From positions 1 through 64,000 of the forward strand of contig CANARY010000007.1 in the NCBI GenBank assembly GCA_947364235.1: DNA of 64,000 bases, in the 5' to 3' direction. Source of the stretch: an uncultured Candidatus Melainabacteria bacterium. Its GTDB lineage: Bacteria > Cyanobacteriota > Vampirovibrionia > Gastranaerophilales > Gastranaerophilaceae. Position 1 is the stretch's first letter; each line of letters begins with the position of its first letter. Made by a program: the position numbers and the translations under genes. This document shows, one piece after another, positions 19,160 to 21,568 of this stretch. The notes beneath the pieces are model-generated. The model had not been told where the DNA came from and did no database searches. It saw nothing but the letters and a program-made list of their open reading frames with translations.

Positions 19160-20623
19160 CTACGAATATACAAACGGCGGGCCGTTTTTGATTTCAAACA
19201 AAATATTATCAGCTATTATTTTAAGTTCTTCTTTTGATTTGCCGTTTTCTTTCTGCGTAAAAAATTCTTCGCATAGAGGCTCAATTGCGGATTCTTTTTT
19301 TGCTTGAAAGTTTCGAAGTTCTGTTGATACAAGTCTATTTTGCAAATCCAGTTCGATTTGGGCGTTATATTTTTTTACTTGAACTTCTTTTACTGCTTCT
19401 GCTGCTGATTTGCCGCTGTATGCTAGTGCTGTAATGCCGGAAATACCGAAGAATAAGTTTTTAAACTGAGGATTTTTCGGATTCATAAGCCAGTCGTAAA
19501 AGAAAGATAAATAGTCATTAACGTGAGAAAAATAAGTAATTTTATTCCTTCCGCTTCCGCCCATCATTGGATTAACTTTTTCGGTTGCTTGGTTCATACT
19601 GTTGTTTAAATGTTTAATAAACTCTTGTTTTTCACTTTCTGGGAGGTTGAGTTTGTTAACAGTTTTTTTGATTTCTTCTGGTCCGGCATAAACTGATTCC
19701 AGCAGGTTTTCTATCAAATGTTTGTAAGCTTCTTTACCTGAAAGAATTTCACCATTATGTCCTTGCAGGTTATCTAAAGGTTTACCGCTGTTGAACTCTT
19801 CGATTATATTATTCAGTCCTTGTCTTGTATTTTTAAGTCCTTTTGATATAAATTCATCACTTTTGCGGATGTTTCGAGCTGTGTAATAGCCAAGTCCAAG
19901 GATGGTTAATAATGAAGCTCCGCCTAAAATTAACTGACTGTATTCTTTTTTGTTTTCTTTTTGTCCTTTGAAAGAAATTTCGTTTGAAAATATTTTTGCT
20001 TTTGATGAGAGCATACTTCTTATAATTTGTATTTTTCCTGAGAAAGATTGAGTTTCAATTGCAATTAAGTTTTCTTGTAAATTCTTTTGGATATCAGCTT
20101 CTTGTTTTTTTATCCAGACTTCTTTAAAGCCGTCGATAAAAGTTTTGCTCATAAATGCCATTGAACCGAGGGTTATGACACCTAATGAAGCTAAAATTGT
20201 TTTTCTGTTTGGAGATTGAATCATGCTGAAAATACTTTGGTGTATTTCATCGTTAATGCAATGATTTCGTGTAATCCCAGGCAAAAGGTATTCTTTTGAA
20301 GATTCCATTTTACCTCTTGAGAATTTTTTCATCATACCGGTAAAAGCGCCAAGCAGTGCCATTACTCCCACTGTTGCAGCACAAAGAGGTAAAAGAGGAT
20401 TTGATTTTTTTTCTTCTATTTCGTTAAGTCTTTGAGGTAAATCGATTTTTGTATTGGAAATTACAAGCGTATCACAAGTTTCGTCAAGAGAAAGCAGAGG
20501 ATCTTTTACGAAAGAATTTACAATCACTCCTTCTTTTACAGAAGAGTCGTTGCGTTTTTGTGTGTTTGTCATATTTTTCTGGTGTCTTGAAGATTCAAGA
20601 TCCTGATTGATTTTCGGTATCAT
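19160..20623 (-). CDS. Orphan membrane protein with duplicated helix module, second gene of B12-riboswitch operon
   Basis: 487 residues, no recognised family. Hydrophobic segments lie near residues 75-95, 140-158, 230-248 and 393-410. Two regions are copies of one module: a membrane helix followed by KEV-x2-KK-x2-A-x-I-x3-LQ-x2-L-x3-E-x3-F-x2-K (near 160-200 and 410-450). The N-terminal 60 residues look disordered. The start overlaps the upstream gene by 29 bases, implying coupling; Met18 is an alternative. It shares the transcript, and so the cobalamin control, of the gene at 20595-21296. An envelope or corrinoid-related role is only inference from the switch. Confidence 0.7.
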   Translation of the reverse strand: MIPKINQDLESSRHQKNMTNTQKRNDSSVKEGVIVNSFVKDPLLSLDETCDTLVISNTKIDLPQRLNEIEEKKSNPLLPLCAATVGVMALLGAFTGMMKKFSRGKMESSKEYLLPGITRNHCINDEIHQSIFSMIQSPNRKTILASLGVITLGSMAFMSKTFIDGFKEVWIKKQEADIQKNLQENLIAIETQSFSGKIQIIRSMLSSKAKIFSNEISFKGQKENKKEYSQLILGGASLLTILGLGYYTARNIRKSDEFISKGLKNTRQGLNNIIEEFNSGKPLDNLQGHNGEILSGKEAYKHLIENLLESVYAGPEEIKKTVNKLNLPESEKQEFIKHLNNSMNQATEKVNPMMGGSGRNKITYFSHVNDYLSFFYDWLMNPKNPQFKNLFFGISGITALAYSGKSAAEAVKEVQVKKYNAQIELDLQNRLVSTELRNFQAKKESAIEPLCEEFFTQKENGKSKEELKIIADNILFEIKNGPPFVYS

Positions 20624-21296
20624 CCTTTTTCTTTTTCCAAATTTTGTGAATAATTGTTTTTAGATTAAAAATCTTTTTATCATCATCTATTTTTGTATCA
20701 TCGTCTTTTGTGTTATTTTTTCGGAAGATTTTGAATAAATCACCAAATTTTGTTTTTATAACGCTGACAAATTCTGAAATTTTCTTTTCAACGAAAGCTT
20801 TAGCTTCGCCGAAAATAGCGTTAAGTTTGTCTTGAATATCTACGATTTTTTGTTTAAATTGCGACAGCTTGTCTTGAATATTTGAGATTGTGTTTAGGAT
20901 AGTACTAATACTTTTGGTAATCCCATTTACTCCTGCGACGATATTAATAATTGTATACGCAACAGGTTTTAAAATAAAGCTGTTTGAAATTTTGTTTGCA
21001 AATTCAAGCATTTTTTGAGTCATTCCGGCTAAGTTTTGCTGAAATTTTGCAAGAGCTTCTGCGTGTAATTGAAGGTTTTTTTCATGATTTTCAAGGCGCG
21101 CTTCGCGCGCCCTCATCATTGCCCCAATCATTGCGCACTGATGATAGCTCATTTCTCCTGCTTTTTGCGGTCTTTCTCCTGCTCTTTTTCCGCCTCCTCC
21201 GCCCATGCCGGAACAGATAGGGCACGCTCCGGGCGGAAGCCCGTGAGGGCAGAGCCCTGCGCTTAATTTATTAACCTGTTGAACTGCATTTGTCAA
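20595..21296 (-). CDS. Orphan protein with CPHGxPPGxCPIC motif, directly behind cobalamin riboswitch
   Basis: 233 residues. The N-terminus has CPHGLPPGACPICSG and a glycine run, a compact Cys/His motif suited to metal binding; residues 46-58 add YHQCAM. A coiled-coil helix (65-110), a modestly hydrophobic helix (about 110-130), further amphipathic helices and a highly charged tail (KKKKDDTENQSGS) follow. No known family. The start is a TTG at 21296: no in-frame ATG exists nearby, and AAGGAAG (21305-21311) stands at the right distance. That site lies in the riboswitch's regulatory hairpin, so translation should fall when cobalamin is plentiful. Confidence 0.7.
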   Translation of the reverse strand: MTNAVQQVNKLSAGLCPHGLPPGACPICSGMGGGGGKRAGERPQKAGEMSYHQCAMIGAMMRAREARLENHEKNLQLHAEALAKFQQNLAGMTQKMLEFANKISNSFILKPVAYTIINIVAGVNGITKSISTILNTISNIQDKLSQFKQKIVDIQDKLNAIFGEAKAFVEKKISEFVSVIKTKFGDLFKIFRKNNTKDDDTKIDDDKKIFNLKTIIHKIWKKKKDDTENQSGS

Positions 21297-21301
21297 AAAA
21301 T

Positions 21302-21530
21302 AAACTTCCTTCGCTGTTTTGTGCCGCAGCGTAAGAAAGCTTTATGCAATACTGTGACTCGCAGTTTTTTGCATTATCTTTTGTGAGTATAGATATGAGG
21401 CGGACTTGGTATTGTTATAAAAATTGCTGTTTTGCTTGTGTCCGACGGAATTATATCTACGTACTTAGTACTTCCGGCTATAACGGCTGCGGCACAGTCA
21501 CGGAATTTCACCGTAGTTTCCTCGTATTTA
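21302..21530 (-). promoter_or_regulatory. Cobalamin riboswitch
   Basis: Reading minus: GAGGAAAC, then GGTGAAATTCC, then GACTGTGCCGCAGCCGTTATAGCCGG (21474-21523) match the conserved cobalamin aptamer core order. A shortened B12-box-like ACCAAGTCCGCCTCAT follows at 21395-21410. The regulatory hairpin P13 (CGCTG 21327-21331 with CAGCG 21312-21316) presents a loop whose GCTGCGGCACA (21320-21330) is perfectly complementary over 11 bases to TGTGCCGCAGC in the core (21486-21496). This is the L5-L13 kissing pair known from the E. coli btuB switch. AAGGAAG, the ribosome binding site of the 233-residue gene, is partly paired in that hairpin, pointing to translational control. The peripheral part of the aptamer is divergent. 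Confidence 0.82.
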
Positions 21531-21539
21531 ATTTTCTAT

Positions 21540-21568
21540 ATAGTAAGTCAATTGTTTTTTGCGGTCAA
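21540..21568 (-). promoter_or_regulatory. Promoter of the riboswitch operon
   Basis: Minus strand TTGACC (21563-21568), exactly 17 bases, TACTAT (21540-21545). A start about seven bases later puts the aptamer at the 5' end of the transcript. Confidence 0.65.

Follow-up and report, generated by a model that had tools for sequence, protein, structure and literature searches.

Riboswitches point to the function of uncharacterised genes, and the locus described here raises the question of what a cobalamin riboswitch controls in a bacterium of the order Gastranaerophilales when neither gene downstream of it belongs to a known family. In the literature, which we covered in part, no study of cobalamin switches from this order came up; the one paper that mentions both cobalamin riboswitches and Melainabacteria reviews the cyanobacteria in general. 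The window, that is, the whole stretch of 64,000 nucleotides that was analysed, carries the following features on its minus strand, given in the order of transcription.

21540..21568, minus strand: sigma-70-like promoter TTGACC-17-TACTAT, a consensus match only, with similar boxes in relatives
21462..21534, minus strand: predicted AdoCbl-II (class II cobalamin) riboswitch aptamer, RF01689, 37.2 bits, core invariant in 30 genus sequences
21487..21497, minus strand: P5/L5, CUGUGCCGCAG, target of both downstream loops
21344..21374, minus strand: hairpin homologous to the P13/L13 kissing loop of the class, loop CGAGUCA, inner stem 21364-21352
21305..21339, minus strand: predicted RBS-sequestering hairpin, -12.0 kcal/mol, its loop complementary to P5/L5 (11-mer 21330-21320)
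21305..21312, minus strand: gene 1 ribosome binding site AAGGAAG, 8 nt ahead of the TTG at 21296
20595..21296, minus strand: gene 1, 233 aa, invariant CPHG...G.CP.C tail followed by amphipathic helices
19160..20623, minus strand: gene 2, 487 aa, membrane protein with an internal duplication and the invariant C-terminus NGPPFVYS, overlapping gene 1 by 29 nt

The first-pass annotation had proposed a cobalamin riboswitch on the minus strand, and the covariance model of the AdoCbl-II family supports it: the score of the segment 21534-21462 exceeds the gathering cut-off of RF01689 (36.5 bits), with a margin of just 0.7 bits, and the E-value of the match is 3.5e-5 when calculated over the 64-kb window and 1.7e-7 over the local stretch. 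Several other members of the genus also score near the cut-off. The conserved core (GGAAA, P4/L4, P5/L5, P6, and J6/3) is unchanged in 30/30 genus sequences. RF00174, the model by which the switch was to be checked, describes the classical class I aptamer with the P7-P11 peripheral domain; it has zero matches in the whole genome to which the window belongs and was rejected as the aptamer family in favour of RF01689. Judged by its sequence, the segment is an AdoCbl-II class cobalamin aptamer and the predicted corrinoid sensor of the operon. The candidate promoter lies just upstream of it, and similar boxes precede the switches of several relatives, while promoter-like sites occur 1.3 times on average in shuffled sequence. 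Since this candidate, a consensus match only, ends at 21540, transcription would start close to the aptamer.

The perfect 11-base complement between the core and the regulatory hairpin is exact, as annotated: TGTGCCGCAGC (21496-21486) matches GCTGCGGCACA (21330-21320), and 2/1000 dinucleotide shuffles of the downstream leader contain a match of this length (∼0.2%). Its predicted pairing with P5/L5 comprises 11 bp at -21.9 kcal/mol. The downstream segment lies inside the hairpin 21339-21305, and the AAGGAAG site forms the paired 3' arm of the same hairpin, so that the partial pairing of the ribosome binding site also held up. In the comparison of the 11-mer and the RBS hairpin, which covers 23 leaders, most of the genus leaders examined have hairpins similar to that of the window, and in most the hairpin carries an L5 complement of at least 7 nt; the 11-mer is missing from two leaders (L004 and L018). 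Nearly all relatives within the genus use the same TTG start with its ribosome binding site, and the leader of the window operon contains no ORF. In other genera of the family, a UCCUCU strand, read by eye, could pair either with the AGAGGA of the ribosome binding site or with the AGAGGA at the 5' end of the aptamer.

The 11-mer had further been equated with the L5-L13 kissing contact of the class. The complement itself is real, but it pairs with the whole P5 element and J5/6 besides L5 and therefore is not solely a loop-loop kiss, and the conserved L13 lies elsewhere (21364-21352). Throughout the order, a hairpin downstream of the aptamer has a loop that covaries with L5, with pairs such as UGUGUCG/CGACACA (L155), CUGC/GCAG (L141), and CAGC/GCUG (L143); only 1/5000 loop permutations pairs as well, although the sequences are related and this value is not a strict probability. 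Within the genus, the L5 variant UGUACCG is accompanied by the loop CGAGUUA (L051, L109, and L167). Comparative evidence of this kind indicates that the covarying hairpin is the L13 of the class and that its counterpart in the window is 21364-21352, not the RBS hairpin, with the loops of the window and of some other leaders assigned by eye. In the window, this hairpin (CUG-CGAGUCA-CAG) has weak complementarity to L5, and the alternative 11-nt contact exists. Kissing loops that contain a bulge or a mismatch have been described for env8HyCbl and for cobT of A. halodurans (PMC10653944). By this assignment, the 11-mer makes a further contact with L5/P5, specific to the genus and separate from L13. 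Because its pairing takes up P5 and J5/6 besides L5, we infer that it acts as an anti-aptamer in the ligand-free state; the competing interpretation is that it kisses L5 directly.

Taken as an anti-aptamer, the 11-mer suggests the following mechanism. When a corrinoid is bound, the folded aptamer would hold L5, the RBS hairpin 21339-21305 would close, and the operon would be off. When the ligand is absent, GCUGCGGCACA would pair with P5/L5 instead; this pairing would open the upper part of the RBS hairpin and compete with the aptamer, allowing translation to start. The B12-repressed logic of the first-pass annotation, with a hairpin loop complementary to L5, was thus probably right. Regulation of the operon by a cobalamin switch is well supported, while both the binding of a ligand and the OFF direction are predictions from the sequence.

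To see how far the association of switch and gene 1 extends, we turn to the relatives. Within the genus sample (34 genomes, G000-G033, all of them MAGs), 33 have exactly one AdoCbl-II match, counted at E<=0.001, and exactly one gene 1, adjacent to each other. The remaining genome, G025 (91% complete), has neither, and hence a species that has lost the operon also lacks the switch. Of 20 loci fetched from other genera of the family, 18 have an RF01689 match above the cut-off immediately ahead of gene 1, and in the other two (L151 and L157) the aptamer core is visible by eye. The check suggested with the first-pass annotation, for the same switch ahead of homologues of the 233-residue gene, thus came out positive. 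Gene 1 again follows a switch in families f3, f5, f6, and f7, and in three f3 genomes (L071, L087, and L091) RF00174 is the fitting model; L065 retains a degenerate core only, and L084 has none. The coupling of switch and gene 1 recurs across the order with different expression platforms, and one operon under both class I and class II aptamers is a good system for studying the evolution of riboswitch platforms. Gene 1 was found in 182/289 genomes of the class, with every match listed falling in this order. The related loci retrieved with gene 1 belong to MAGs whose titles read Candidatus Gastranaerophilales, uncultured Melainabacteria or uncultured bacterium; several came from the rumen. In genus g38, gene 1 is absent from the four listed genomes (G242, G268, G272, and G278), which are 97–99% complete and offer a natural loss for comparison.

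The expression platforms of families f2-f4 have a layout of their own. Here a ribosome binding site and a leader ORF of 5–8 codons come directly after the P13 hairpin; the stop codon of the ORF abuts a hairpin resembling an intrinsic terminator, and the main gene lies further downstream (L061 with two switches, L062, L070, L072, L078, L080, L081, L088, L071, L087, and L091). This suggests that the switch gates translation of the leader ORF and that a ribosome at its stop codon masks the terminator.

Both proteins of the operon lack a known family in sequence searches of Pfam, NCBIfam, and PDB, and the first gene is indeed the orphan Cys/His protein that had been annotated. Weak coiled-coil matches were rejected, as none was below E ∼0.0003 and none above a curated cut-off. 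The tail of gene 1 (CPHG...G.CP.C...GG) is invariant across the order. Gene 2 encodes about three hydrophobic segments, as expected of a membrane protein, and its internal duplication aligns residues ∼136–197 with ∼383–442 (29% identity, E 9e-8); its identity to the window copy is 69–83% in most fetched relatives and 39% in two. Searches of Pfam and NCBIfam found in these proteins no TonB receptor, FecCD permease, ABC ATPase or binding-protein domain, and no Meth_synt or NRDD domain of the MetE and NrdD isozymes. The AlphaFold models are poor, with a mean pLDDT of 58 for gene 1 and 55 for gene 2. In several relatives, a third gene of 173–184 aa follows genes 1 and 2 (L064:4427-4948, L068:4621-5175, L077:10151-10705, L079:5968-6492, and L125:8242-8796); it is absent beside the window operon. 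The window also carries what we take, from their sequence, to be fabZ-, lpxC-, and lpxD-like genes, which suggests that the host has an outer membrane.

We searched for B12-related genes in 57 genomes, the 34 of the genus and 23 others. In the 34 genus genomes we found no class II ribonucleotide reductase (NrdJ), no FecCD/BtuC, no TonB plug, no PduO/EutT-type adenosyltransferase (PF01923), and no CobA/BtuR (PF02572). The TonB plug is rare throughout all 57 genomes, and PF01923 was found in none of them. Outside the genus, NrdJ is present in 21/23 genomes and CobA in 22/23, and hence the searches for these two do work. B12-binding domains in the genus mostly belong to radical SAM proteins, two of them in the genome of the window. 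MetH occurs in 4/34 genus genomes (G005, G018, G020, and G024), one confirmed by TIGR02082 and three inferred from matches of like kind and length. At L130:1700-6203, a MetH-type protein of 893 aa ends before the reactivation domain of the model and is followed by a gene encoding a homocysteine methyltransferase/MTHFR fusion. The genus has NrdD, with no AdoCbl-II match ahead of it, and the nrdD of the window genome lies elsewhere, on contig C4. The sole cobalamin switch detected in the genus thus precedes an operon with no assigned function; as far as Rfam shows, the B12 regulon has shrunk to this operon of two family-less proteins. The ligand sensed may be scavenged AdoCbl, or MeCbl or OHCbl, which are ligands of class IIa switches (PMC11260477).

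Elsewhere in the order, cobalamin switches precede btuB-btuC-btuD-btuF, metE, nrdD-nrdG, cobT, and an OprB porin with cbiM. The OprB-family porins under such switches (L061:2567-3988 and L080:6581-7927, one of them followed by cbiM) are candidates for an outer-membrane route for corrinoids or cobalt in genera lacking BtuB. Another switch (L062, 1899-1993) precedes a 61-aa ORF and a radical SAM peptide maturase, CbpB (174-1777; TIGR04163, E 1e-216), which points to a B12-controlled modified peptide.

What, then, does the operon do? As the sole switch-controlled locus in a genus with no detected coenzyme-B12 synthesis, importer or NrdJ, the gene pair is a strong candidate for a B12-linked function. 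The explanation we favour, with confidence a little short of even, is a B12-repressed translational OFF switch acting on a two-gene envelope system, specific to the order, as a stand-in for corrinoid uptake. The two proteins would form an envelope system acquiring corrinoids, made when B12 is scarce, and would replace BtuBFCD in lineages lacking it. Counted by genus, the operon and BtuC occur together in one, the operon alone in ten, BtuC alone in four, and neither in two (Fisher p 0.028, uncorrected for phylogeny); in both genera with neither, an OprB-type porin is under a B12 switch. This near-exclusive distribution, B12 repression, and membrane association are the reasons for preferring a stand-in for uptake, a role that, taken by itself, we propose tentatively. 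Still, neither protein looks like a transporter, their structure models are of low quality, and the genus shows no adenosyltransferase. The favoured explanation as a whole also has to contend with the narrow margin of the aptamer score, the two leaders lacking the 11-mer, the coexistence of operon and BtuBFCD in genus g7, a Fisher test that ignores phylogeny, and the reliance on MAGs. The first-pass annotation had left the choice between lineage-specific corrinoid uptake, storage or replacement; the coupling of switch and gene 1, the failure to find NrdJ, BtuC, a TonB plug or CobA in the genus, and the confinement of the listed gene 1 matches to the order support this proposal and do not prove it.

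A rival explanation makes the operon a stand-in that needs no B12, like metE and nrdD, or a stress function, in either case unrelated to transport and used when corrinoids are scarce. The same kind of switch does control metE and nrdD-nrdG in this order, but neither protein matches an enzyme family, and the operon is kept although the genus lacks NrdJ and 30/34 genomes lack MetH, which leaves little for it to stand in for; we regard this as unlikely. Storage is somewhat less probable again: gene 1 would be a protein that binds corrinoids or cobalt to store or sense them, anchored by gene 2, and the Cys-Pro-His-Gly and Cys-Pro-x-Cys motifs of its tail are invariant across the order, but they could equally bind zinc, and a storage protein is expected to be induced by its ligand, not repressed. 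We give the same low probability to B12 serving as an environmental cue, for example for B12-making gut neighbours or feed, that controls a surface structure outside B12 metabolism. Retention of the switch in a genus where the searches found neither AdoCbl synthesis nor NrdJ nor a known importer fits such a cue; against it, other switches in this order stand before B12 genes, and a cytoplasmic RNA needs a corrinoid inside the cell, so that some import route must exist. Finally, the scores near the cut-off in several members and the undetected AdoCbl metabolism might indicate a decaying relic, but the core is invariant in 30 sequences, the loops show compensatory changes, and the switch persists in 33/34 genomes, its one absence coinciding with absence of the gene, all of which makes decay very improbable.

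Corrinoid uptake thus remains our preferred function. In its most specific form, the operon would be a new corrinoid acquisition system of the Gastranaerophilales, operating without a TonB receptor or BtuCD under a B12 switch, in a genus that has lost known import, adenosylation, and the use of NrdJ; we hold this version slightly more cautiously than uptake in general. The data suggest that B12 is either imported or used as a cue in a way that lies outside present models, and a B12-linked role of the operon is directly testable in gut bacteria.

Compared with known systems, the window shares with the AdoCbl-II family (RF01689) the core of P4-L4, P5-L5, P6, and J6/3 and a ribosome binding site sequestered in a downstream hairpin. 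Unlike that family, it has two downstream loops complementary to L5, with L13 away from the ribosome binding site and the 11-nt complement inside the RBS hairpin, and it controls genes of no known family. The translational switches of E. coli btuB and env8HyCbl combine an L5-L13 contact with an RBS hairpin (PMC10653944), as is predicted for the window; there, however, L13 and the RBS hairpin are two separate elements, the latter with a P5/L5 complement of its own. Among the B12 switches of M. tuberculosis, ppe2 and metE, the former is likewise a gene of uncertain function under a cobalamin switch, and the leaders have uORFs (PMC11260477), as L061, L078, L081, and other relatives have leader ORFs of 5–8 codons before a terminator; the genes and the phylum are different, and the window has no leader ORF. 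BtuBFCD differs from the two orphan proteins in its TonB plug, FecCD, ABC, and periplasmic-binding domains. The analogy with it, which is only proposed, is that both would be B12-repressed and envelope-associated, with BtuBFCD filling the same slot under a similar switch in sister families.
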